A stretch of 64,000 nt of DNA. Source: Streptomyces capillispiralis (GTDB taxonomy: Bacteria > Actinomycetota > Actinomycetes > Streptomycetales > Streptomycetaceae). A program made the translations under genes and the position numbers. Every line of letters starts with the position of its first letter. Positions within the stretch are counted from its first letter, which is position 1. Location: assembly GCF_007829875.1 (NCBI RefSeq), contig NZ_VIWV01000001.1, positions 1,116,001 through 1,180,000 of the forward strand. The letters are read 5' to 3'. Of this stretch, positions 1 to 52,990 are shown piece by piece. A model generated the notes under the pieces. That model searched no databases and was not told the DNA's origin. It saw nothing but the letters and a program-made list of their open reading frames with translations.

Positions 1-1
1 G

Positions 2-1315
2 GTCGACGGCGTCCCGCTGACCGCGTACGTGCGCCCCGGCCAGCAGCCGCCCCTCCCCCTCAGCTGGGCGGTGTCCGTGGCGGCCCAGGTGGCGACCGTG
101 CTGTCGTACGCGCACGACGTGCCCGTCGTCCACCGTGACCTGAAGCCGGGCAACATTCTCGTCGCCCGGGACGGCACGGTGAAGGTGCTGGACTTCGGCA
201 TCGCGGCAATCCTGCGCACGGACGTCACCAAGCTGACGGCGACCGGCAGTCCGATCGGGACACACCAGTACATGGCACCGGAGCAGGTGCGCGGCGCCCG
301 GGTCACGCCCCGCACCGACCTGTACGCGCTCGGCTGCGTCCTGCACGAACTGCTCGGCGGGCGACCGCTGTTCGCCGGGGACAGCGAGTGGCAGCTGATG
401 ATGCAGCACATCAACGCGGCACCGACACCGCTGCGGCAACTGCGCTCCGACGTGCCCGAAGCGCTGGAGGAACTCGTCCTGCACCTGCTCCGCAAGGCGC
501 CCGAGGCGCGTCCGGCGGACGTGCAGGAGGTGTACGAGCGGCTGCGGCCGTATCTGCCGGTACCCGGCGAGGAACCCGCGCCGGAAGCGGCGGGTCCCGC
601 CGGGGCGCCCGACCCGACGGGGATCTTCCGGCGTCCGTACGCACCCCGGGCGCGCACCGGCACCACGGGCGCGCGGCCCGCCGAGGCAGCCGTGGCACCG
701 GACGCGCCGCCCGCCGTCCCAGCGGCCGAGCGGGAGGCGCTGCGGGAGCAGATCCGCGAGGTGTACGCGCACTACGTCGCCCTCATGGAAGAGGAGCGGT
801 ACGCGCAGGCCACCGAGGTGGTGGACGAGATGATCGAGCCGGCCGCACGCGCCCTGGGCTCGGAGAGCAGGGCGGTCCTGCGGCTGCGCACCTGGCGGGC
901 GGTGAGCCGGCAGCTGGCCGGTGACCACCGGGCGGCGCTGCCCGAGTTCGAGGCGCTCGCCGACGCCTACGCGCGCGTCGGCGGCCCGAGCAGCGAGGAA
1001 GCCCTGGACAGCCGCGCCCAGGCCGCCCGCTGTCGTGGGGAACTCGGCCAGGTCACCGAGGCACTGGCCGGACTGAACGGCGTACTGGACGCCGTACGCG
1101 CGATCGACGGCGACGTGAGCGAGAACGCGGTGGAGCTGCGGCGCGACATCGGCATGCTGCTGCTGGCGCAGCAAAGGGCGGCGGAGGCGTACGACGTGCT
1201 GGAGCCGCTGCACTCGGACCTGTGCGTGGTGTTCGGCCCGGACGACGAGCTGACGGCCGAGGTGGCGGAGACCCTGGCCGTGATCCGCCTCGATCTGGAT
1301 GGTCCTGGCTACTGA
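2..1315 (+). CDS. Serine/threonine protein kinase, C-terminal part (5' truncated by window edge)
   Basis: This is an open frame entering from the left edge; the true start and the kinase N-lobe lie outside the window. The catalytic loop HRDLKPGN is followed by a DFG motif, an activation segment with APEQ and the DLYALGC helix, so it is a Hanks-type kinase that phosphorylates Ser/Thr. A Pro/Ala-rich linker follows, then about 200 residues of helical, TPR-like sequence that probably mediates partner binding. No transmembrane segment is visible in this part, so it may be cytosolic. Its substrate cannot be told. It is co-directional with the AIPR gene, but the 130-bp gap and different base composition argue against a shared function. 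Confidence 0.88.
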   Translation, partial: VDGVPLTAYVRPGQQPPLPLSWAVSVAAQVATVLSYAHDVPVVHRDLKPGNILVARDGTVKVLDFGIAAILRTDVTKLTATGSPIGTHQYMAPEQVRGARVTPRTDLYALGCVLHELLGGRPLFAGDSEWQLMMQHINAAPTPLRQLRSDVPEALEELVLHLLRKAPEARPADVQEVYERLRPYLPVPGEEPAPEAAGPAGAPDPTGIFRRPYAPRARTGTTGARPAEAAVAPDAPPAVPAAEREALREQIREVYAHYVALMEEERYAQATEVVDEMIEPAARALGSESRAVLRLRTWRAVSRQLAGDHRAALPEFEALADAYARVGGPSSEEALDSRAQAARCRGELGQVTEALAGLNGVLDAVRAIDGDVSENAVELRRDIGMLLLAQQRAAEAYDVLEPLHSDLCVVFGPDDELTAEVAETLAVIRLDLDGPGY

Positions 1316-1447: not shown

Positions 1448-3610
1448 ATGACGGCAAAGAAGGCCGGGGAAACCACGCCGAGCGTGGCCACACAGGTGCG
1501 TCAGGTTGGCGGAGCGCTGAAGACGGTGTATGGCAGTCTGCTGGACGTCAGCGATCTCGAAGGCATGCCTGCACATGAGCAGGAGCCGCGGCTGCTGTCG
1601 CGGGCCTTGACTGCACAGGCCGTACGCATGGTCACCGGCTTCAGCCCGCAGGAGGCGGCCCGGAGCGTCATCGACGGGCACGCGGACCAGGGCATTGACG
1701 CCATCGCGGTGGTGGACGGCCCTCAGCCGCACGTATACCTGGTGCAGGGAAAGTGGAGCCCCGAGGGAAGAGCCGCAGCCGACCGGAAGGCGGTCTTGGA
1801 ACTCTTCGCCGGTCTGCGCCTCATCGACGACGAGGACTTCGCCCCATTCAACCCACGAGGGCGTCAGCTGGCCGAGTACGCCAAGGCCGTCATGGATCGA
1901 GGGCCCGTACCCGTGACCCAGGTCATCGTGCTGATGCGACCCGACAATCCCGGTATCGGCTTCCAAGATGCTCTGGTCAACGGCGAGAAGGAGTTCAACC
2001 GCTACGGCGACATCCTCGACCACAAGGTCATCCTGGCACCCGAGGTGTGGGCCTCGGTCCGCGAGGACCTCACGCCAAGGCCGGTCCAACTCACTGCGAC
2101 TCTTTTCCCTTGGTTCGGAGTCAGCTCTCCCTACGAGTCCTACCAAGGCGTTGTCATGGCCGAAGAGGTCGCCGACTGGGCCGCAAGCGGCTCCGACCTG
2201 TTCAACCTGAACATCCGGAACCCTCTTGGCCGGACCCCGATCAACAACGCCCTCATCGAGACCCTTACGGAGGAGCCGTCCCACTTCTGGTACTTCAACA
2301 ACGGCATCACCGTGCTGTGTGACTCGGTCGAAAAGGCCCAGCAGAACAGGCGTGCACCACAGCACTATCCCCTCACCCTCACTCTGCACAACGCCAGTGT
2401 GGTGAACGGTGCGCAAACCGTCCGGTCCGTGGCCGAGGCACTCGATTCCGACGAGGCCGCGGCCCAGGCACAAATCGGCGTGCGCATCATCGTGACAGGT
2501 GCTGCTCAAGAATTCGCCAGAGAAACGACAAAAGCGACGAACCGGCAGAACAGCGTGGTCGCACGCGACTTCATTGCTCTTGACCCAGTGCAAGCGGCCA
2601 TCCTGGAAGAAATGCGGGCCGAACTCGGCCTGGACTACAGCGTGCGCCGCAGCGAGTTGGAGCCGCCTGAGGAGACCGGCTGCTCCGTGGTCGAGGCCGC
2701 TTGCGCACTGGCCTGCGCCCACAAGGACAGCCAGTACGCAGCGCGCATGGGGGTTTCGCTCGACGTGCTCTGGGAGAGGGGCGGACAAGGCATTTACGAC
2801 GTCCTCTTCCGACCTCAACCAGGCGCTTACCTTCTGTGGAATGCGGTGCAAGTCCTGCGCGAGGTCCGCCGCACGCTCTACGGACTGCGCAGCCGCTACG
2901 AAGGGCGTGGCGCGGCCCTGACCGAGCACGGTGTCTTTTTGATCGCCCACCTTGTCTTCCGGCTGTTGGACACGGAAGCCATCGACGAACCGGACCCCGC
3001 ACTCGAGTGGTCCAAGGAGGCCACCGGCAGAACGGGGCCCCTCGTCAAACGATTGTTGCCCATCGTGTCCGCATCCATCGACGAGCTGTTCAAAGAGCGT
3101 TCCCAGATCCGTGCCGTCTGCTCGGACGTCGTGCGATGTCGTGAGCTTTCCGAGCATGTGCTTGACATCGTCGCGAACGGCGATGCGGCCAGGACTCCGG
3201 ACAAGTACCGGCGAGTCCAGGCACAGCGCAAACGCCGTCGCCCCAACGCGGTTTCCGTGTTGGTCGACAAGCAGATCCTCGCCAATGGAGATCCGCTCAC
3301 GCTCAAGGCCGGGTACCCGTTGGAGGAGGAAGCGCTACGAGGTTGGCTCGCCGAGGACGAACGGCGAGTGCGGGCAACCTGGGTGAACCACCGAACCAAG
3401 CCGCTCCTCTGGGCAGCCGATGGCAAGCAGTACTCGCCTTCCGGCCTGATCACCCGTATGTGGGAGCTCGCGGAGTGGGAGAAGCGGCCCGTGGCCAACC
3501 AGGGCACGGCCAGGTGGGCGATCGCCACGGGCGAGACCCTGGCGGATCTGGCGTGGCGGGCTCTGGATGAACTCGAGGAGTCAGCCGAGGACGAACGGGA
3601 CCGTGATTGA
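1448..3610 (+). CDS. AIPR-family (abortive infection phage resistance) protein
   Basis: A 720-residue protein with the AIPR-domain hallmarks: the FWYFNNGIT block at about residues 280-288 and NGAQTV at 320-325, with a preceding region that handles a nuclease-like substrate in this family. AIPR proteins were first linked to abortive phage resistance and occur in phage-defence islands; the molecular activity is not settled. The ATG at 1448 follows GGGAGGGG at good spacing. Codon third positions are visibly richer in A/T than in the neighbouring kinase, which suggests horizontal acquisition. It stands 73 bp upstream of the helicase gene in the same direction, so co-transcription is likely. A function in phage defence is inferred from family and context only. 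Confidence 0.8.
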   Translation: MTAKKAGETTPSVATQVRQVGGALKTVYGSLLDVSDLEGMPAHEQEPRLLSRALTAQAVRMVTGFSPQEAARSVIDGHADQGIDAIAVVDGPQPHVYLVQGKWSPEGRAAADRKAVLELFAGLRLIDDEDFAPFNPRGRQLAEYAKAVMDRGPVPVTQVIVLMRPDNPGIGFQDALVNGEKEFNRYGDILDHKVILAPEVWASVREDLTPRPVQLTATLFPWFGVSSPYESYQGVVMAEEVADWAASGSDLFNLNIRNPLGRTPINNALIETLTEEPSHFWYFNNGITVLCDSVEKAQQNRRAPQHYPLTLTLHNASVVNGAQTVRSVAEALDSDEAAAQAQIGVRIIVTGAAQEFARETTKATNRQNSVVARDFIALDPVQAAILEEMRAELGLDYSVRRSELEPPEETGCSVVEAACALACAHKDSQYAARMGVSLDVLWERGGQGIYDVLFRPQPGAYLLWNAVQVLREVRRTLYGLRSRYEGRGAALTEHGVFLIAHLVFRLLDTEAIDEPDPALEWSKEATGRTGPLVKRLLPIVSASIDELFKERSQIRAVCSDVVRCRELSEHVLDIVANGDAARTPDKYRRVQAQRKRRRPNAVSVLVDKQILANGDPLTLKAGYPLEEEALRGWLAEDERRVRATWVNHRTKPLLWAADGKQYSPSGLITRMWELAEWEKRPVANQGTARWAIATGETLADLAWRALDELEESAEDERDRD

Positions 3611-3683
3611 CGCGGGAACGGCGCAGAATCGCACCATTCAACGAACGGGCTAAGCCAATTCGGGTCTAGGAAAGAATCCAGTT

Positions 3684-5849
3684 ATGCCGCACCTCGCTTT
3701 CGACATCGGCTTCTTCGCCGAACTCCCCAAGCTTCAGCCGCCGGTCAGGAAGGGGGTCCTGGACGCCTGGGAGAAGTTCGGCCGGCTCACCCTCGACCAG
3801 CTCTTCAAGGACCAGGGGCTGAAGCTGGAGAGCCTGACGAAGGCGAAGGACAAGCAGATCCGGACGATCCGCATCGACCAGTTCTGGCGCGGTGTGGTGC
3901 TCGCGCCGCCCACCGGGGACACCTTCGTCCTGCTGCGTGTTCTGCCGCACGACAAGGCCATCGACTGGGCGATGAAGCAGAAGTCCAGCATCAACGAGGT
4001 CACGCGCGCGGTGGAGATCCGGGACGCGGCGACCCTGGACGAGATCACGCCCGCGTACGAGCGGGTGGCGGAGTCGTCGCCGAAGCCGCGCCTGTTCGCG
4101 AAGTTCTCCGACGGGGACCTCACCGCGCTCGGCATCGACGCCGAGACCCTGCGGCAGGCCCGGTCGCTGGTCGACCAGGAGCAGTTGGACGTCTTCGCGC
4201 CGCTGCTGCCGCAGGACCAGCGGGAGGTGCTGCAGTACCTCGCCGCGGGGTGCACGGTGGAGGAGGTCTGGCAGGACATCGTCGCGCCCGCCCTTCAGGC
4301 GTCCACGCAGCCGGTGGACACGCGGGACTACGAGACGGCGATCCAGCACACCCGGGCCCGTATCGCACTGGTGACAGCACCCGAGGAGCTGCGGGACATC
4401 CTCGAGAAGCCCTTCGCGGCCTGGCGGGTCTTCCTGCACCCCTCCCAGCGGAAGGTGGCGTACCGGGGGTCGTACTCGGGACCCGCTCAGGTCACGGGCG
4501 GGCCGGGCACCGGCAAGACCGTGGTCGCGCTGCACCGGGTCAAGCACCTGCTCGGGCATCTGCGCGACGGCGACCGCATCCTGCTGACGACATACACCAA
4601 CGCGCTCGTCAACGCCCTCCGGTCGGGCCTGGAGTCGCTGGTGGACGACCCGGAGCTGCGCGAGCGTGTGGACATCTCGACGGTGGACGGCTTCGCCAGC
4701 CGTGTCGTCGCGGAGGCGCCGGACGCCGTGGCGCTGCGGCCGCTGATGAGCAACGAGGAGGTGAGCCGGTGGGGCAAGGCCGCCAAGGCGACGGGCTTCT
4801 CCGGCAGTGCGCACTTCCTCGCGCAGGAGTACCGGCACGTCGTCCTGGCGCAGGGCATCACCTCCCTGGCCGAGTACGAGGCGGCGGACCGGCGAGGGCG
4901 CGGCAGCAGGCTGGCGGCGGGCGAGCGGCCGCTGGTGTGGGAGACGGTGGAACGGTTCACGGCCGATCTCGCGGCCGACGGGTGCCGCACCTGGCTGCAG
5001 ACGTGTGTGGAGGCGGCGCGGCTGCTGGAGGCGAAGGGGCCGCAGTACCGGCACGTGGTGGTGGACGAGGCGCAGGACCTGCATCCGGCGCAGTGGCGGC
5101 TGCTGCGCGCCGCCGTTCCGGCCCGCCCGGACGACCTGTTCATCGCGGGCGACCCGCACCAGCGCATCTACGACTCGAAGGTGTCACTGAAGTCCCTCGG
5201 CATCAAGGTGGCCGGGCGGTCGGTGAAGCTGCGCAAGAACTACCGCAGTACGCAGGAGATCCTGCGCTGGTCCACCGCCCTGCTCATCGGCCGGCCGATC
5301 GCCCAGTTGGAGGACGAGGGCCGTAACGAGACCCTGCTCGGCTACCGCTCCGCCCTGCACGGCGATGGTCCGGTGGTTCGGGGTGCAACGAGCGAGGAAG
5401 AAGAACTGGACGCGCTGGTCGCCCAGGTGCGGGCGTGGAGGGACGCGGGCGTCGGCGCCGGGGAGATCGGGGTGAGCGCCCGGTTCAACAAGACGTGCGC
5501 GAAGGCGGTGGCACGCCTGAAGGACGCAGGCATTCCCGCGGTGACCCTCCGCAACGTCTCCGGCGGTTCCTCCACGGCCGAGGAGACGGCCGTACGGGTC
5601 GGCACCATGCACTCGTTCAAGGGCTTGGAGTTCCGCTGCGTCGCGGTCATCGGCGTCACCGAGGAGGCACTGCCGTTCGCGAAGGCGGTCACGCCGCCCG
5701 AGGTGGACCCCAAACAGCACGAGACGGACATGCTGTCCGAACGCTGCCTGCTGTTCGTCGCCTGCACGCGTGCGCGGGACAGCCTCTCCGTGTCCTGGTC
5801 GGGCGAACCGAGCACCTTCCTGACCGAGGCCGGCGTCACCACCGTCTAG
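3684..5849 (+). CDS. UvrD-like superfamily 1 helicase with N-terminal RelE/ParE-like domain
   Basis: 721 residues. Residues 8-98 look like a RelE/ParE-type fold: a short helix-rich start, a basic strand with RTIRIDQFWR at 60-69, and the closing HDKAIDWA at 89-96. The helicase core follows: Walker A GGPGTGKT at 272-279, motif II DEAQD at 461-465, a DPHQRIY motif III, KNYRST motif IV, and motifs V/VI with THMSFKGLEF-like (GTMHSFKGLEF) and CTRARD. It should be an ATP-driven 3'-5' DNA translocase. The ATG at 3684 has a GGAAAG ribosome site. The gene lies between AIPR and OLD nuclease genes; UvrD helicases beside OLD nucleases are known from Gabija-type defence, but here the helicase comes first and carries the extra domain. 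Confidence 0.85.
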   Translation: MPHLAFDIGFFAELPKLQPPVRKGVLDAWEKFGRLTLDQLFKDQGLKLESLTKAKDKQIRTIRIDQFWRGVVLAPPTGDTFVLLRVLPHDKAIDWAMKQKSSINEVTRAVEIRDAATLDEITPAYERVAESSPKPRLFAKFSDGDLTALGIDAETLRQARSLVDQEQLDVFAPLLPQDQREVLQYLAAGCTVEEVWQDIVAPALQASTQPVDTRDYETAIQHTRARIALVTAPEELRDILEKPFAAWRVFLHPSQRKVAYRGSYSGPAQVTGGPGTGKTVVALHRVKHLLGHLRDGDRILLTTYTNALVNALRSGLESLVDDPELRERVDISTVDGFASRVVAEAPDAVALRPLMSNEEVSRWGKAAKATGFSGSAHFLAQEYRHVVLAQGITSLAEYEAADRRGRGSRLAAGERPLVWETVERFTADLAADGCRTWLQTCVEAARLLEAKGPQYRHVVVDEAQDLHPAQWRLLRAAVPARPDDLFIAGDPHQRIYDSKVSLKSLGIKVAGRSVKLRKNYRSTQEILRWSTALLIGRPIAQLEDEGRNETLLGYRSALHGDGPVVRGATSEEEELDALVAQVRAWRDAGVGAGEIGVSARFNKTCAKAVARLKDAGIPAVTLRNVSGGSSTAEETAVRVGTMHSFKGLEFRCVAVIGVTEEALPFAKAVTPPEVDPKQHETDMLSERCLLFVACTRARDSLSVSWSGEPSTFLTEAGVTTV

Positions 5850-6150
5850 TCCTCTCAGCGCTGCACCTCTCCCTCAACACCAACGCGCGGTCACCCGGGA
5901 GCGCTTCCTTCCTCCTGCGGTGTCCGCGTGCCCGTACCCACGACAGGCCTGGTGTCTCCGCACGCCCATCACTGTTCGATTGACAGTGCTTTCATTGGCA
6001 TGGTTGAGTGCTCGTGCTTCCGGTGACGCCTAAAGGGCATCACCCGAAGCAACTGCCCTTCGTGCCCGGCTCAACCCGGAGTGCCCTGGCGTCACGGCCC
6101 TTTCGACACCCCGTCCCGGGCATGCCGCACCGTCACACCTCAGGAAAACC
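5850..6150. other. 301-bp intergenic gap with possible promoter
   Basis: No convincing coding frame is present. A TTGACA hexamer lies at 5980-5985 in the most A/T-rich stretch and could be the -35 box of a promoter for the OLD gene. No good -10 partner is seen at the usual spacing. The gap suggests that the OLD nuclease has its own transcription start rather than strict co-transcription with the helicase. Confidence 0.4.
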
Positions 6151-8046
6151 ATGAAGATCAAGCGCGTTCGCATCGAGAACTTCTGCTGCCTGCGCAGCCT
6201 CGACGTCTCCTTCGACTCCATCACCTCGCTCATCGGCCCGACGGGCGTCGGCAAGTCCACCGTCCTGCGTGCCCTCGACTGGTTCTTCAACGGGGAGAAG
6301 GGCGGGACCCTCAGCGAGGAGGACGTCCACTCGGCGGCGGAGACCAGACGGATCCGCGTGGAGGTCGAGTTCGACGGTCTCACCGCCTCCGACCGGTCCG
6401 CGCTCGGTCACTACGCACCCGACGGACTGGAAACCCTGAGTGTCTGGCGCACCTGGGAGAACGGAGAGGACCGGATCACGGGCAAGGCCCTGGCCTATCC
6501 GCCCTTCGAGCGGATCCGGCAGGGCGCCGGCAGCAGGGAGAAGACGGCCGCGTACAAGGCCTTACGCGAGCAGGACCCGGCTCTCGGCCTGCCCGCCGTC
6601 CGCGGCTGGGACGCCGCCGAAGCGGAGATGCGGTCCTGGGAGGCGAGGAACCGGGACCGGCTCGCCGAAGCCGAGGTGGAGGGCACGCACTTCTTCGGCT
6701 TCGCCGGCCAGGGGCTGCTCGGCAAGCTGATCGACTTCGTGTTCATCTCGGCCGATCTGCGGGCCTACGAGGAGACGGACGACAACAAGGCGTCCGTGGT
6801 GGGCCGGATCCTCGAGCACGCGGTCGACCGCTCGGAGGCGGAAGCCCAGTTCACGGCCATCGACGAGGACGCTCAGGCGGCTCGCGAGAAGGTGCACAAG
6901 GAGATCTACGAGCCGGTGCTCGCGAGACTGTCCGGGGCCCTGTCCGCGGAGGTCGGCCGGTTCACCACCGGCCGGGACGTCGTCGTCACCCCGACGGCCC
7001 AGGTACCCAAGCGCGCCAAGACCGCGTTCGCGGTCAGCATCCGTGACGGGGCGGCTCTGACGCCGGTCCGCCGCCAGGGGCACGGATTCCAGCGCGCGCT
7101 GATCATCGCGGCGCTCCGGTACCTCTCGGAGTGCCGGCGCCCCGAGAACGGCACGCGCTCCCTGTGCCTGGCGATCGAGGAGCCCGAACTGTTCCAGCAC
7201 CCGGCGCAGACGAGGGTCTTCGCGCAGGTACTGCGCAGCCTGGTCGCGTCGGCCGAGGACCAGACCCAGGTGATGTACGCGACGCACAGCCCGGTGTTCA
7301 TCGACCCGAGTGACTACCAGCAGGTCCGCAGGCTGTACCGGGTCAGCGGTGGCGAGCATCCGGAGGTACGCCTGCGCGCCCTCACCGAAAAGGAGCTGCG
7401 TCAGTCCCTCGACGGCCATGTACCGGAGAGGTCCATCGCACGACGAGGGGCCACGCGGTACGTCAAGGAGCTTGCCGAGGCGCTGTTCGCCGACGTCGCC
7501 GTCCTGGTCGAGGGCGCCACGGACGAGAGCGTCCTCCTGGCCTTCGCCGAGCGTCAGGGCCTCAGCCTCGGCGCCGAAGGCATCTGCGTGGTGAACGCCG
7601 AGGGCAAGGGCAACATGATCCTCTGCCACGCCATCCTCACGGGGTTCGGCGTACGCTGCCACCTCGTCTTCGACGCGGACACCGGGCCGAGGAAGGTGGC
7701 CGACGCGGACACCGAGAAGAAGGCCGCGAGCATCCGGGAGTCCGTCACGAAGAACACGAGGATCCTCAGCTATCTGGGGATCACCGCCGAAGCCAGCCCC
7801 GCGAGCGTGAGCGAGGCGACCCACACCCTCTTCGAGGAAGACCTCGACACCTACCTCAGGGACGACTGGCCCGCCTGGAACGCCCGCCGCCAGGAACTGA
7901 TCGCGCAGGGCGATGGTTACGTGGACGGCAAGCACGGGCCGACGTACGCCGAGGCCACACGCACCGCCGACGGTGAACCGAAGCTGCTGCACGCGCTGCT
8001 GGAGAACGTGAGGGCCATGGCAGGGCGGCCGGCACCTAGCACCTAG
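6151..8046 (+). CDS. OLD-family ATP-dependent endonuclease (AAA ATPase + TOPRIM)
   Basis: 631 residues. The N-terminal ABC/SMC-like ATPase has Walker A GPTGVGKST at 29-37, a signature/dimerisation region in the middle and Walker B-like LAIEEPE at 340-346, followed by the ATHSP switch. The C-terminal TOPRIM domain keeps VEGATDE at 453-459 and FDAD at 507-510, the acidic residues expected to bind metal and cut DNA. This is the GajA/OLD architecture. The neighbouring UvrD-like helicase makes it a class-2 OLD candidate, i.e. a Gabija-like pair. Start at ATG 6151 after AGGAAAACC. Catalytic residues look intact. The gene order is reversed relative to canonical gajA-gajB, and identity as true Gabija is not shown. 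Confidence 0.85.
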   Translation: MKIKRVRIENFCCLRSLDVSFDSITSLIGPTGVGKSTVLRALDWFFNGEKGGTLSEEDVHSAAETRRIRVEVEFDGLTASDRSALGHYAPDGLETLSVWRTWENGEDRITGKALAYPPFERIRQGAGSREKTAAYKALREQDPALGLPAVRGWDAAEAEMRSWEARNRDRLAEAEVEGTHFFGFAGQGLLGKLIDFVFISADLRAYEETDDNKASVVGRILEHAVDRSEAEAQFTAIDEDAQAAREKVHKEIYEPVLARLSGALSAEVGRFTTGRDVVVTPTAQVPKRAKTAFAVSIRDGAALTPVRRQGHGFQRALIIAALRYLSECRRPENGTRSLCLAIEEPELFQHPAQTRVFAQVLRSLVASAEDQTQVMYATHSPVFIDPSDYQQVRRLYRVSGGEHPEVRLRALTEKELRQSLDGHVPERSIARRGATRYVKELAEALFADVAVLVEGATDESVLLAFAERQGLSLGAEGICVVNAEGKGNMILCHAILTGFGVRCHLVFDADTGPRKVADADTEKKAASIRESVTKNTRILSYLGITAEASPASVSEATHTLFEEDLDTYLRDDWPAWNARRQELIAQGDGYVDGKHGPTYAEATRTADGEPKLLHALLENVRAMAGRPAPST

Positions 8047-8120
8047 CACGGATACACGAGGTTCGTGCCGTCCGTGCCGGACGCCGACCGTAGGCTGTCG
8101 CTGGACAAAAAGGGGAGACG

Positions 8121-9425
8121 ATGACTGACCACCGCAAGGGAACCGTTCCGGTGTGGACGCTGGCGACCGGTGATACCCGGGTGCCCGCACTGGCCGAAGA
8201 CGGACCGATGACGGCTGAGCGCCTGGCTGAACTGCGCAGCGTGCTGGCCGCCCTGGCCGACGATCCGATCGCCACGCTCGAGGTACATCCGCTGCCCGAC
8301 AAGCTCGACCGCAGCCGGGGTATCCCTCTCGATGGTGCAAGTCCCTTGGCGCAGCACCTGTCGCAGCTCATCACGCAATCAGCGCGGAGTTCCTCTGCGG
8401 CGGTGACAACCGCGGGCGACGGGCTGTACCGCATGGTGATTCCGGCGAAGGTCGCCGCCCAGTGCGGTCAGGGCCTCATTCGCCCGATGGCAGCGAAGGG
8501 GGTGGCCGGTGCCATCCGCGGCCCGCTCGTGAACTCGGCGGGGAAGATTGTCAGCGGTGCGACGTTCGTGCCGGTCGGTCAAGTGGCGACGGCGGGTGCG
8601 GTGGGTGGAGCCGGTGCGACAGCCGGTGTAGCGATCGGCGGCAGTGCGGCGCTCACCGTGGCCGCACCGCTCGTCCTCATGGCCGTGGCGGTGGGGGTGA
8701 GCGCGCATGCCGACGGCAAGCGGCAGCAGGCCATCGAGCACATCACGGAACTGCTGGAGCAACTGAAGGAGCAGGAGCTCGAACAAGAGCACAGCGCACT
8801 CGACGGCTGCCGCGACGCCATCGACAAGGCCACGGCCATTCTGCTCGACCAGGGCAAGCCCGGTGCCTCGCTGGGCCTGGACTCGGCAGTGCATGCCATC
8901 AACTCGGCGCTGGGCGCCGTCGACCGCCGCCTCGCCAAGTGGCAGAGCGCACTCGACAAACTGCCGGAGGGCCAGCCGGTCGACCTCGGCACGCTGACCA
9001 AGTCGTTCCCCGGCATCGACGACCATGGCGGCGTCTTCCGCGCCCACCTCGAACTCGCGAACCTGGCCATCGCGTTGAAGCGGCGGGTCGTCGTCCTGCA
9101 AGCCGTGGAACACGCCCAGACCGACCCCGGCAACCTCTTCGAGAACTTCACGCGCGTACTCAAGCGGGACCAGCAGCGCCTCGACGAACTGGAGTCGAGC
9201 ATCGCTGGTGTCCTGGTCCGCCTGTCGGCACTGGAGCTGGCCCGCCCGCACGGTTTGCGGCCCGTCTTCACTACGGCGGAAGTCGATCGCCTGATGCGCG
9301 CGGCACACCGGATTCACCAGCTCGGCGACGACGTCGTGCTCGACGGCAGCGCTACCGACGTGGCGATCGAGATCGCCCGCGACGAGGACGGCTCGGTGGT
9401 CGTGTTCCCCGCGCTGCCCGCGTAG
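8121..9425 (+). CDS. Unknown protein with Gly/Ala-rich hydrophobic segment and coiled coil
   Basis: 434 residues, not recognised. Residues about 125-195 form a continuous small-residue hydrophobic stretch rich in Gly, Ala and Val that could insert into membrane as one or two hairpins. It is followed by a charged, Glu/Lys/Gln-rich coiled coil at about 198-225 and a mainly helical remainder. The ATG at 8121 follows AAGGGGAGACG, a strong ribosome site, 74 bp after the OLD gene in the same direction. The layout (soluble N-terminus, glycine-zipper-like segment, helices) is compatible with a membrane-acting effector of the upstream defence-like genes, but this is only inference from position and composition. 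Confidence 0.7.
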   Translation: MTDHRKGTVPVWTLATGDTRVPALAEDGPMTAERLAELRSVLAALADDPIATLEVHPLPDKLDRSRGIPLDGASPLAQHLSQLITQSARSSSAAVTTAGDGLYRMVIPAKVAAQCGQGLIRPMAAKGVAGAIRGPLVNSAGKIVSGATFVPVGQVATAGAVGGAGATAGVAIGGSAALTVAAPLVLMAVAVGVSAHADGKRQQAIEHITELLEQLKEQELEQEHSALDGCRDAIDKATAILLDQGKPGASLGLDSAVHAINSALGAVDRRLAKWQSALDKLPEGQPVDLGTLTKSFPGIDDHGGVFRAHLELANLAIALKRRVVVLQAVEHAQTDPGNLFENFTRVLKRDQQRLDELESSIAGVLVRLSALELARPHGLRPVFTTAEVDRLMRAAHRIHQLGDDVVLDGSATDVAIEIARDEDGSVVVFPALPA

Positions 9426-9539
9426 CGGGCCGGCCCACCACCGCACCAGCCGCGACGTCCCGCCGCCGACCTGACTCCGGCACTTCCGGCACAGTCGTGT
9501 TCTCGACGGACTGCCGGCGACCAGCCGACGAGTACGGCG

Positions 9540-9573
9540 AAGGCACGGACTGAGAACTCCCCTCCGTGCCTTT
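9540..9573 (+). terminator. Rho-independent-like terminator after the accessory block
   Basis: A perfect 10-bp inverted repeat, AAGGCACGGA at 9540-9549 and TCCGTGCCTT at 9563-9572, is followed by a short T run. It lies 115 bp after the stop of the 434-residue protein and would end that transcript. Confidence 0.65.
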
Positions 9574-9870
9574 GCCGTCATGACAGCGCCCGTGTGCACG
9601 GCGGCACCAGATTCTCGCTCGCTCCGATCCACCCAGCGGTGGCGGCGGTGCTGAGAGCGAGGCAGACGCCCGGTCCCCGAGGGCGGGAGCCGGTGCCGTC
9701 AGGCGGTGACCTTCCGCACCGGACGGGCCGTAAACCATGCCGGACGGGGGCAGCCGTGCGGGTCGCCGGGTGACCAGGGATGAGCCTTTTCCGCTCTTTC
9801 CGTCGCCCGGCGACCGACGCGGAGACATGACGGACATAAGACTCGGCACCCATCTGCTGCGTTCAAGGCA

Positions 9871-9966: not shown

Positions 9967-12738
9967 ATGCCAGCCCCCCGCACCAGACCGGCAGCCGTCG
10001 CGCTGCTGGCCTCGGCCCTCGTCGCCGTCGGCGTGGGCCCGGCCGCCGTACCGGCGGCCGCGGCCACCGTCCCCGTAGGCTCCGGCAGTTACTCCGACAC
10101 CCGGCCCTCCGGCACGTCGGGCCCCACCACCAACACGGGAACCCCGGTCACACCCAAGGTGACCGACGCCGCCCGGAACCGGCCGGTGCCCACCAACGAC
10201 TGGTGGTCCTCCCTCGCCTTCCAGCGCTACGGCGACAACCCGTACTCGACCCCCATGTACGGGCACCCCCTCACCTACCAGGCCACGGCCGGCGGGCTCG
10301 ACGTCGGCTATCCGACGACCCCCGCGATCGTCGGTGACGGCCGCCAGTACGAGTACGCCCACAAGCGCGACCTCACCATCGGACTGACCGGCCTCAACTC
10401 ACCGAACACCAAGGCCGACGACTGGTCCGACTGGACGGTCACCCCCTACTGGTCCGACGGCGCCCGCACCCTGCGCACCACCATCGGGCACGGCTCCCCG
10501 TTCGTCTACGCCAAGGGCTCCGGCGGCAACGCCCAGATCACCACCGCCGGCTCGCCCGCCGTCTTCGCCGACCAGGGCAACGTCCTCGGCATCACCGTCG
10601 CCGGGCACCACTACGCCCTCTTCGCGCCGACCGGCAGCGACTGGAACGTCGCCGGCTCCACCGTCACCGCGGGGCTCGGCTCCAAGGACTACTTCTCCGT
10701 CGCCGTGCTGCCGTCCACCGACGCGCTGGCCACCTTCAAGAAGTACGCCTTCAGCTTCGTCACCGGTTCCAAGGTCACCTGGAACTACTCCGGGGGCACC
10801 GTCGGCGCCACCTACACGCTCACCACCGAGGCGAAGGAAGGCACCGAGCGCGGCACGCTCCAGGCCCTCTACCGCCACCAGTGGCTGAACACCAAGGACC
10901 CCCTCACCTCCTACACCTACGTCTCGCCGCGCGGCACCATGAAGGTCCGCGAGTCGGCCTCCTTCACCACGAGCCAGAAGGCGTCGGCGGTGCTGCCCGC
11001 GCTGCCCAAGTCGAACGGTGTGGACACCGCCCGGCTGCGCGGCTACCTGAACGAGGTCGTGAACGCCTCCGACCCCTTCTCCGGGGCCTCGGACACCTAC
11101 TGGACCGGCAAGGCGCTCGGCCGCCTCGCCCAACTCGTCCCGGTCGCCGACCAGATCGGCGAGACCGGCACCCGCGACCGGATGCTCGGCCTGATGAAGG
11201 GCAAGCTCCAGGACTGGTTCACGGCGGGAGGCGCGAACGAGTTCAGCTACGACAAGGACTGGAAGACCCTCACCGGCTACCCCGCCTCCTACGGCAGCGA
11301 CACCGAGCTGAACGACCACCACTTCCACTACAGCTACTACGTCTACGCGGCCGCGATCGTCGCGCAGTACGACCCGGCGTGGGCCGCCGACTCCGCCTGG
11401 GGCGGCATGGTCAAGGCCCTCGTGCGGGACGCCGCCAACCCCAGCCGCACCGACGCCGCCTTCCCCTTCCTGCGCGGCTTCGACGTCTACGCGGGCCACA
11501 GCTGGGCCTCCGGCCACCAGGGGTTCGCCGCCGGCAACAACCAGGAGTCCTCCTCCGAGTCCACCAACCTCAGCGCGGCCCTCGTGCTGTGGGGCTCCGC
11601 CACCGGCGACACCTCACTGCGTGACCTCGGAACCTACCTGCTGACCACCGAGTCGGAGTCGATCGCCCAGTACTGGTTCGACGCCGACGAGCAGGTCTTC
11701 CCGTCCTCCTTCGGTCACGACACGGCCGGCATGGTGTGGGGCAGCGGCGCCGCCTACTCGACCTGGTGGACCGCCAACCCCGAGGAGATCCACGGCATCA
11801 ACGTCCTGCCCGTGACCGGCGGGTCGCTCCACCTGGGCGGCGAGAAGGCCGCGATCCGGCGCAACATCGCCGAGATGGAGCGGGAGAACGGCGGCCCGGC
11901 CGTCGAATGGCGCGACATCCTCTGGGAGTTCCAGTCCCTCGCCGACCCGGCCACGGCCCGGGCGAAGTGGGACGCGGGGCACGCCGGCTACACCCCGGAA
12001 CAGGGGGAGTCGAAGGCGCACACCTACCACTGGATCAACACCCTCGACACCCTCGGGGCCCCGGACGCCACCGTCACCGGTGACATCCCCACCTCCGCCG
12101 TCTTCACCAAGGGCACGACCCGCACCTACGCGGCCCACAACCACGGGTCGACGGCCCGCACCGTCACCTTCTCCGACGGCAAGACCCTCTCCGTGCCGGC
12201 CCGTTCCACCGCGACCGGCACCGGAAGCGGTTCACAGGAACCCGACCCGGAACCGCCGACCGGCAACACCTTCCAGTTGCGCAGCGGTGGCACGCTGACC
12301 ACGGCGACGGGGGGCACGGCGGGCAGCGACACCATCGCCTCCGCCGGCGGCACCAACCACGACGGCACCCCGTACCAGCCCGTCGTCTACGAGGTACGCG
12401 GTGTCAACGGCACGCTCACCCCGGGCGCGCAGACCGCCTTCCGGCTCCAGGTGGACGCGGGCACCTCGGTCGGGCTGGGCCAGCAGGCGCGGATCAGCTA
12501 CGACCTCACCGGCGACGGCACCTTCGACCGGACGGAGACGTACCACTACTTCGCGACCGACCCGGTCACCGGATGGGAGGAGTACACGCAGGCCCGCGGC
12601 CTCAAGGCGTCCACGGGCACCCTGGGCGCTCTCGTCGGCGGCACCGTCCGTCTCGAGGTGTGGAACGCCATCGGCAACGGCACCTCGAAGCTCCAGACGG
12701 GCACGGACAAGTCCGTGCTGGTGATTCCCTACAGCTGA
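9967..12738 (+). CDS. Secreted GH81 endo-beta-1,3-glucanase
   Basis: 923 residues. A Sec signal peptide ending near AAA-AT is followed by the GH81 fold, recognisable from NDWWSSL near the start of the mature protein, GHSWASG, and the NNQESSSE active-site block at 524-531, where Glu is the catalytic base in this inverting family. After a Pro/Glu linker at about residue 760, a C-terminal beta-rich domain of about 155 residues resembles a carbohydrate-binding module of the CBM56 type (tentative). The enzyme should hydrolyse internal beta-1,3 bonds of fungal or algal glucan outside the cell. ATG 9967 follows GAGGTG. The upstream operator links it to the beta-glucan genes around 34-44 kb. Confidence 0.9.
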   Translation: MPAPRTRPAAVALLASALVAVGVGPAAVPAAAATVPVGSGSYSDTRPSGTSGPTTNTGTPVTPKVTDAARNRPVPTNDWWSSLAFQRYGDNPYSTPMYGHPLTYQATAGGLDVGYPTTPAIVGDGRQYEYAHKRDLTIGLTGLNSPNTKADDWSDWTVTPYWSDGARTLRTTIGHGSPFVYAKGSGGNAQITTAGSPAVFADQGNVLGITVAGHHYALFAPTGSDWNVAGSTVTAGLGSKDYFSVAVLPSTDALATFKKYAFSFVTGSKVTWNYSGGTVGATYTLTTEAKEGTERGTLQALYRHQWLNTKDPLTSYTYVSPRGTMKVRESASFTTSQKASAVLPALPKSNGVDTARLRGYLNEVVNASDPFSGASDTYWTGKALGRLAQLVPVADQIGETGTRDRMLGLMKGKLQDWFTAGGANEFSYDKDWKTLTGYPASYGSDTELNDHHFHYSYYVYAAAIVAQYDPAWAADSAWGGMVKALVRDAANPSRTDAAFPFLRGFDVYAGHSWASGHQGFAAGNNQESSSESTNLSAALVLWGSATGDTSLRDLGTYLLTTESESIAQYWFDADEQVFPSSFGHDTAGMVWGSGAAYSTWWTANPEEIHGINVLPVTGGSLHLGGEKAAIRRNIAEMERENGGPAVEWRDILWEFQSLADPATARAKWDAGHAGYTPEQGESKAHTYHWINTLDTLGAPDATVTGDIPTSAVFTKGTTRTYAAHNHGSTARTVTFSDGKTLSVPARSTATGTGSGSQEPDPEPPTGNTFQLRSGGTLTTATGGTAGSDTIASAGGTNHDGTPYQPVVYEVRGVNGTLTPGAQTAFRLQVDAGTSVGLGQQARISYDLTGDGTFDRTETYHYFATDPVTGWEEYTQARGLKASTGTLGALVGGTVRLEVWNAIGNGTSKLQTGTDKSVLVIPYS

Positions 12739-12950: not shown

Positions 12951-13508
12951 ATGCCCGAGCAGCGCCCCGCACACCACCCCACGACCGAACTCGACAGCCG
13001 CTACAGCTCCGCCCTCAATCCCCGCCCCGGTGCCGGGGACGTCACCGCCACCGAGTGGGCCGAGGCCCAGCGGCACCTGGAGGCCGCCGAGATCTTCTGG
13101 GTCTCCACGGTGCGGCCCGACGGCAGGCTGCACGTCACGCCCGTGATCGCGGCCTGGCACGACGGTGTGCTGTACTTCTCCACCGGCCGGGAGGAGCAGA
13201 AGGCGAAGAACCTCGCCCATGACGCGCACTGCGCGGTGACCACCGGGGGGAACGCGCTCGGCAAGGGGCTGGACCTGGTGGTCGAGGGCGAGGCGGAGCC
13301 GGTGACCGATCCGGCGCTGCTGGAGGAGGTGATCGCGGCGCACGAGACGAAGTACGGGCCGCACATCACCTCACCGGAGGGCACCTTCCACGGGCTCGGG
13401 GACTCGTTCCGCAGGGGTGACGCCGTGGTGTTCGCGGTCCCCCCGGCCACCGCGTACGGCTTCGGCCGGGAGGACGGTGTGTTCAGCCATACGCGATGGG
13501 TGTTCTGA
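12951..13508 (+). CDS. Pyridoxamine 5'-phosphate oxidase-like flavin/F420-binding protein
   Basis: 185 residues with the split beta-barrel pattern of the PNPOx-like family: a strand with FWVSTVRPDGRLHVTPV, a second with GVLYFSTG, then KAKNLAHDAHCAVTTG, where flavin or F420 phosphate is bound. Members include F420-dependent reductases and general stress proteins. The exact cofactor and substrate cannot be read from sequence. ATG 12951 follows an AGGAGG-type site and the gene appears monocistronic. It converges with the next gene. Confidence 0.8.
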   Translation: MPEQRPAHHPTTELDSRYSSALNPRPGAGDVTATEWAEAQRHLEAAEIFWVSTVRPDGRLHVTPVIAAWHDGVLYFSTGREEQKAKNLAHDAHCAVTTGGNALGKGLDLVVEGEAEPVTDPALLEEVIAAHETKYGPHITSPEGTFHGLGDSFRRGDAVVFAVPPATAYGFGREDGVFSHTRWVF

Positions 13509-52894: not shown

Positions 52895-52905
52895 ATGGTG
52901 CGCGG

Positions 52906-52990
52906 TGTCCGAGGGGGGACTTGAACCCCCACGCCCGATAAAGGGCACTAGCACCTCAAGCTAGCGCGTCTGCCATTCCGCCACCCGGAC
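52906..52990 (-). tRNA. tRNA-Leu (anticodon GAG)
   Basis: The minus strand folds as a class II tRNA of 85 nt with a long variable arm. The acceptor stem GTCCGGG pairs with CTCGGAC, discriminator A; the anticodon stem CTAGC/GCTAG encloses the loop TTGAGGT, giving anticodon GAG; the T loop is GTTCAAGTC. CCA is not encoded in full. It reads CUC/CUU codons. Confidence 0.93.

Follow-up and report, generated by a model that had tools for sequence, protein, structure and literature searches.

Type I restriction and DISARM are generally regarded as distinct systems. According to PMC13373217, in 88 of 443 cases two controllers, CapK (HTH-STAS-GHKL) and CapS (STAS-wHTH), are encoded just downstream of restriction-modification (R-M) genes, and a role in coordinating R-M with a second immune system has been proposed for them. 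For OLD nucleases we follow the class 1 and class 2 definitions of PMC10568477. Here we compare with these and other defence systems a locus of Streptomyces capillispiralis that extends into a stretch of 64,000 nucleotides (hereafter the window; contig 1, bases 1116001-1180000; genome size 8.43 Mb). A first-pass annotation had proposed that four consecutive genes of this window, coding for an AIPR protein, a UvrD helicase with a RelE domain, an OLD/TOPRIM nuclease and a protein with a hydrophobic segment (G4), form a four-part defence system. The four open reading frames were found at the coordinates then given, all on the + strand (Table 1). They are, though, the right-hand fragment of a longer array beginning left of the window, because a kinase gene and a complete type I R-M set precede the AIPR gene. 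The order of the array is N6-methylase, HsdM, HsdS, HsdR, an XRE/HATPase pair, a TPR-bearing Ser/Thr kinase, AIPR when present, the helicase and variable cargo. What stays constant beside the helicase is the upstream kinase, which the first-pass list of genes lacked.

The genes to the left of the window code for the N6-methylase, HsdM, HsdS, HsdR, a divergent XRE-DUF5753 protein, a HATPase_c_2 protein and the kinase. All members of the type I set score over the Pfam cut-offs (N6_Mtase; HsdM_N and N6_Mtase; Methylase_S; HSDR_N and SWI2/SNF2), and PADLOC assigns the first four genes to MTase_I, MTase_I, Specificity_I and REase_I. Adjacent HsdM, HsdS and HsdR of the expected families identify a type I R-M system. 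For the sequence-specific methylation and ATP-dependent cleavage that would be expected of it, the motifs NPPF in HsdM and D...ELK and DEAH in HsdR are present, and catalytic motifs are intact in the kinase, methylases, HsdR, helicase, OLD and AIPR. As in other type I systems, modification, specificity and restriction subunits are complete and the specificity gene forms a stretch where relatives diverge; unlike them, the locus has an extra upstream N6-methylase and continues into the kinase and the helicase. The kinase gene begins 290 bases before the left edge of the window and in full codes for 534 amino acids, comprising a kinase domain (Pkinase, E 3.9e-44, with the motifs HRDLKPGN, DFG and VAVK all there) and TPRs (TPR_12). 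A scan for promoters and terminators gave no promoter-like site and 5 terminator-like sites against 3.4 expected.

Among the other described systems, MADS shares with this locus a methylase, a specificity subunit and a Ser/Thr kinase, the mad6 match covering the kinase domain. Unlike MADS, however, the locus has HsdR, and its HsdM, HsdS and kinase match mad2, mad5 and mad6 below their best models, MTase_I, Specificity_I and PD-T4-6. No DrmA/DrmB-like hit was obtained in the 10 kb left of the window plus its first 10 kb (L112); the likeness to DISARM lies in the loci of other Actinomycetes described below. The AIPR protein shares the AIPR core of AbiU/MzaE, but its match to MzaE is far under the cut-off (26.3 of 1050 bits). 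Like the CapK/CapS array of PMC13373217, our locus places genes for an ATPase-type and an HTH regulator between its R-M set and the putative effectors, and these might by analogy be a controller pair; the domains differ, being a lone HATPase_c_2 protein and an XRE-DUF5753 protein. The locus contains a type I R-M set and is not Gabija, DISARM or MADS, sharing parts with the latter two. A search of the open-access literature recognised no description of this array; subscription journals and preprints were mostly outside it, so such a paper may exist.

The closest named relatives of the helicase are from Streptomyces. Its pairing with the kinase was counted in 80 other helicase loci, the best 80 of the 536 helicase relatives found; for upstream genes, the 72 with at least 9.5 kb of sequence on the left were used. 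A kinase lies upstream on the same strand in 56 of the 72 and hsdR in 43, rising to 51 and 38 of the 54 loci with helicase identity of at least 60%. Three of the 80 come from Nocardiopsis and have hsdR, kinase and helicase (L065, L067, L068). When 199 Streptomyces genomes were searched, the helicase appeared in 75 at E <= 1e-60, and all 21 best-scoring hits have a kinase on the same strand within 2.5 kb upstream, with AIPR between the two in two cases. One in-frame stop was present in three of these 21. Full-length hsdM or hsdR accompanies 14 of them and hsdR fragments three more, while full-length AIPR occurs anywhere in the stretch in 6, OLD in 3 and G4 in 2. The reverse search, with the C-terminal region of the kinase against 81 genomes, gave 13 loci at E < 1e-45 (the next match being at 1e-19), 11 of which adjoin the helicase (8 present, 1 decayed) and/or AIPR (5). 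The lower-scoring hits in the genus belong largely to another branch, and eight of nine such loci sampled (L146-L154) carry McrB/McrC-like and/or DrmA/B-like genes. Over 119 sampled helicase loci, a non-random sample from which decayed helicase loci were excluded, 81 had a kinase nearby and 86 had type I, DrmA/B or McrBC genes; 15 had none of these, several of them at contig ends. A degenerate kinase locus (G018) and 12 duplicate loci were excluded from the counts.

The pair is also found beyond Streptomyces, in related soil bacteria. Among 394 genomes of the class Actinomycetes, 41 contained the helicase at E <= 1e-150 (47 matches in total), and 20 stretches were examined. In eight (L201, L202, L203, L210-L214) DrmA/B-like genes are followed by a kinase with 37-41% identity over nearly its full length and, directly after it, by the helicase; in four of the eight a GmrSD-type gene comes next. 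PADLOC names DrmA, DrmB and DrmC in L211, the one locus tested, and its methylase corresponds to the same model as the first methylase of our locus. Another stretch, L216, repeats our gene order from the methylase through AIPR and the helicase.

The helicase contains a Walker A motif (GGPGTGKT) and DEAQD, and its whole model matches the fold of UvrD, PcrA and Rep. Its residues 1-111 are predicted to form a strand-helix-helix-three-strand domain with a mean predicted local distance difference test (pLDDT) score of 84. In a Foldseek comparison of this region with the PDB, the top 10 matches were all bacterial toxins of the RelE/YoeB/YafQ kind, including HP0894 of H. pylori, at probability 1.00 and query template modelling (TM) scores of 0.45-0.56. 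By sequence the N-terminus had no RelE match in Pfam or among PDB sequences, and the RelE-like fold is accepted from the predicted structure, which upholds the RelE-UvrD fusion first suggested. R69 and H89 are invariant in 30 aligned helicases and kept in an E. coli plasmid relative with 36% identity; we take them to be equivalent to R65 and H83 of YoeB. That relative (L217:738-14100, a conjugative plasmid) overlaps the end of an overlapping, operon-like run formed by a SNF2 gene, a large DNA methyltransferase that fits type IIG/DrmMI models and a DEAD/DEAH helicase that fits DruE models. Elsewhere (L072:209-13972) a RelE-UvrD helicase with McrB (AAA_5 and DUF4357) and McrC lies beside DrmA, DrmB, an N6-methylase and a sigma-70-like protein.

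The genes around the pair are exchanged as segments. Six close relatives (L002, L003, L004, L012, L019, L020) match our DNA by blastn at 85-92%, and the match is broken at hsdS, at the AIPR segment and across some or all of the slot that follows the helicase. At the AIPR segment it ends at 1299-1303 and restarts at 3673-3684, while L010 is colinear throughout with AIPR at the same place. L004 has OLD-G4 without AIPR. In L020 the match ends at 5847 and restarts at 9869, on the GH81 side, and the interval holds different genes, including one for an nSTAND1-WD40 protein. AIPR and OLD-G4 are thus segments exchanged within a shared backbone. Other genes found after the helicase code for GmrSD_N and EcsC-like proteins; an EcsC-family gene directly follows it at L046:12236-13120, and 12 of the 119 sampled loci have a relative of this gene close to the helicase.

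The AIPR protein belongs to its family by PF10592 (E 1.3e-32, 114.2 bits against a cut-off of 25), and the UvrD and OLD/TOPRIM assignments of the first-pass annotation are likewise backed by Pfam matches over cut-off. Residues D76, D80, D84, Q100 and K102 are identical in 53 of 53 aligned homologues; this N-terminal D-QxK motif is as expected of a predicted Mrr-like nuclease, the Mrr_cat match being below the Pfam cut-off. No Pfam family was found for the C-terminal domain, and relatives of the last ~130 residues (window 3212-3607) occur at 32-38% identity within other proteins of several genomes. Of the 72 loci, 10 have AIPR immediately between kinase and helicase, and on a helicase tree of 101 rows (FastTree) this arrangement, present in 13 rows, needs at least 6 changes. 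From the 199 genomes 36 AIPR loci were retained, 16 of 52 rows being excluded as partial or with E above 1e-45; a kinase (at least 100 bits) is present in 17, hsdR in 14, hsdM in 17 and any of the three in 25. AIPR is a recurrent but separately moving companion and not a random-looking neighbour, because 25 of 36 AIPR loci have these genes compared with 0 of the 6 stand-alone OLD loci. A distant AIPR homologue lies directly beside mad2, mad5, mad6 and mad7 of MADS by PADLOC (L187:1-11332), and L184, L185 and L188 have AIPR with similar kinase or methylase matches.

OLD, with AAA_15 and OLD-like TOPRIM over the Pfam cut-off, was found in 9 of the 199 genomes and near the helicase in only 3; the six stand-alone loci have no kinase, hsdR or hsdM. 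Both OLD and G4 follow the helicase in 4 of the 80 loci (L004, L005, L008, L034). No Pfam family was found for G4, and the hydrophobic segment attributed to it is a single stretch at about residues 167-198 (Kyte-Doolittle maximum 2.19 over 19 residues). G4 as a dedicated partner of OLD was rejected: it occurs in 24 of the 199 genomes, both occur in only 4 (G000, G130, G183, G190) and they are adjacent in 2 (G000, G190). Defence genes are near 14 of the 24 G4 genes, namely the helicase in 10 (within ~16 kb), a helicase fragment (G166), type I genes without an adjacent helicase (G040, G070) and DrmB (G099). The other 10 are not near these, counting G052, whose G4 pieces were not among the fetched sequences. 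At L157:8706-12123, where the locus lacks the helicase, G4 separates hsdR from the kinase. In the window itself the GH81 gene is followed by a pyridoxamine-phosphate-oxidase-like gene (12951-13508), and a tRNA-Leu (gag) is found at 52904-52990 on the - strand.

Table 1 Features of the locus inside the window (positions count from the first base of the window)
Feature	Position	Strand	Length (amino acids)	Basis or remark
Ser/Thr kinase gene, 3' part (C-terminal TPR region)	1..1315	+		
AIPR-bearing segment	1303..3672	+		Missing from otherwise matching backbone DNA of relatives (blastn)
AIPR gene	1448..3610	+	720	PF10592; predicted Mrr-like nuclease N-terminus and AIPR core
RelE-UvrD helicase	3684..5849	+	721	UvrD-helicase E 3.4e-24, UvrD_C; fold like UvrD/PcrA/Rep
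Predicted RelE-like domain, helicase residues 1-98	3684..3977	+		Model pLDDT 84, Foldseek, R69/H89 invariant
Exchangeable cargo slot, helicase to GH81 gene	5849..9868	no strand		L020 backbone match interrupted 5847-9869
OLD-family ATPase-TOPRIM nuclease, class-1-like, cargo	6151..8046	+	631	AAA_15, OLD-like_TOPRIM
G4, cargo	8121..9425	+	434	No Pfam family; one predicted hydrophobic segment
GH81 beta-glucanase gene	9967..12738	+		Glyco_hydro81C E 3.5e-62; right flank, outside the locus; same flank in L020

Gene content and order, kinase-helicase conservation, exchange of segments, intact motifs and the related pair beside DISARM-type genes are best explained, with a probability of about 0.5, by a multi-layer and likely antiviral locus composed of type I R-M, XRE/HATPase, the TPR kinase and the predicted RelE-UvrD helicase, to which AIPR, OLD and G4 are exchangeable additions. 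The kinase and helicase together probably serve as a second layer of antiviral defence. Several observations weigh against this interpretation. Seven of the 21 best loci showed no full-length Hsd genes, some of these loci lying at contig ends. Two of the four decayed helicase loci of high identity (L133, L134) show only a helicase piece and no kinase, two kinase loci (G040 and G014) have neither helicase nor AIPR, and the nine sampled genus loci of the McrBC-linked helicase branch have no kinase (0/9). In the genus sample six loci have AIPR placed between the positions of kinase and helicase, and at four of them (L113, L136, L137, L138) a full-length AIPR stands beside a helicase decayed to fragments; this suggests that the helicase is dispensable there, and AIPR may replace it. 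The RelE assignment comes from a predicted model only, with moderate TM scores. Finally, the protein-distance correlations, which in themselves speak for the interpretation (r 0.90 for kinase and helicase, n 66; 0.93 for HsdR and kinase, n 44; 0.22 for AIPR and helicase, n 12, p 0.10), are uncontrolled for the species tree.

Simple co-location, with type I R-M, the kinase-helicase pair, AIPR and OLD-G4 as separate units sharing an insertion hot spot, would agree with the exchanged segments in the backbone, with the presence of AIPR, OLD and G4 elsewhere and with AIPR distances that barely track those of the helicase. We consider it unlikely, though deserving some weight, as it leaves unexplained why all 21 best loci have the kinase next to the helicase, why 11 of the 13 kinase loci adjoin the helicase and/or AIPR, and why kinase and HsdR show such a tight correlation. 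This same correlation, in which kinase distances track HsdR most closely, would fit a self-protective role of restriction alleviation and repair, with the kinase damping HsdR and the helicase processing breaks, UvrD-like helicases being repair enzymes. Such a role seems improbable, since the pair also follows DISARM-type genes and repair needs no RelE domain with conserved R69 and H89. As for the four-part system initially proposed, the same strand and close spacing of its genes in this genome speak for it, but none of the 80 other helicase loci has its order or contains both AIPR and OLD, AIPR and OLD-G4 are exchanged separately and the helicase-OLD pair is not a conserved unit either. Rare adjacency of the four homologues elsewhere is the outcome that the first-pass annotation had itself named as refuting the system, which is very unlikely to be real. 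A reordered Gabija, with the helicase as GajB and OLD as GajA, is hardly credible. The locus does resemble Gabija in that a UvrD-like helicase adjoins an OLD-family nuclease, and PADLOC matches GajB (120 bits) and GajA (98.9 bits at best). Nevertheless, Old (175.7) and AriA (131.7) outscore GajA for OLD, the nearest PDB entry is 6p74, a class 1 OLD, with no GajA at E <= 0.01, the order is reversed, the helicase has a RelE domain and OLD is near only 3 of the 21 best helicase loci. OLD therefore resembles class 1 and not class 2 (GajA), and it also occurs alone. Of the original interpretation, the defence-type nature of the locus, the RelE-UvrD helicase and the departure from standard Gabija hold, and the four-part system is not supported.

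For the multi-layer locus we infer a mechanism, including its gate, trigger and RelE target, along the following lines. As the first line, HsdMSR would cut incoming DNA that lacks the modification, with XRE and HATPase as possible controllers parallel to CapK/CapS. The kinase might act as a gate, holding the downstream proteins inactive up to the moment of a DNA cut or a breach of restriction. DNA ends or single strands would be the loading sites of the helicase, and mRNA cleavage on ribosomes by its RelE domain would halt phage production or host growth, while AIPR, as a Mrr-like nuclease, and OLD could contribute further DNA cleavage. More tentatively, and as something possible rather than probable, the kinase and the RelE-armed helicase could be a portable second-line module, used with type I R-M or DISARM, in which the kinase restrains a ribosome-targeting toxin domain that the helicase motor delivers once restriction has left DNA ends, so that a breach of restriction would end in shutdown of translation. 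If true, both kinds of restriction would have a shared, exchangeable second layer linking DNA restriction to a predicted RNA-directed toxin domain, and this would explain why AIPR, OLD and GmrSD-type genes gather at these places. The locus also makes a testable question of whether restriction triggers the helicase through the kinase.

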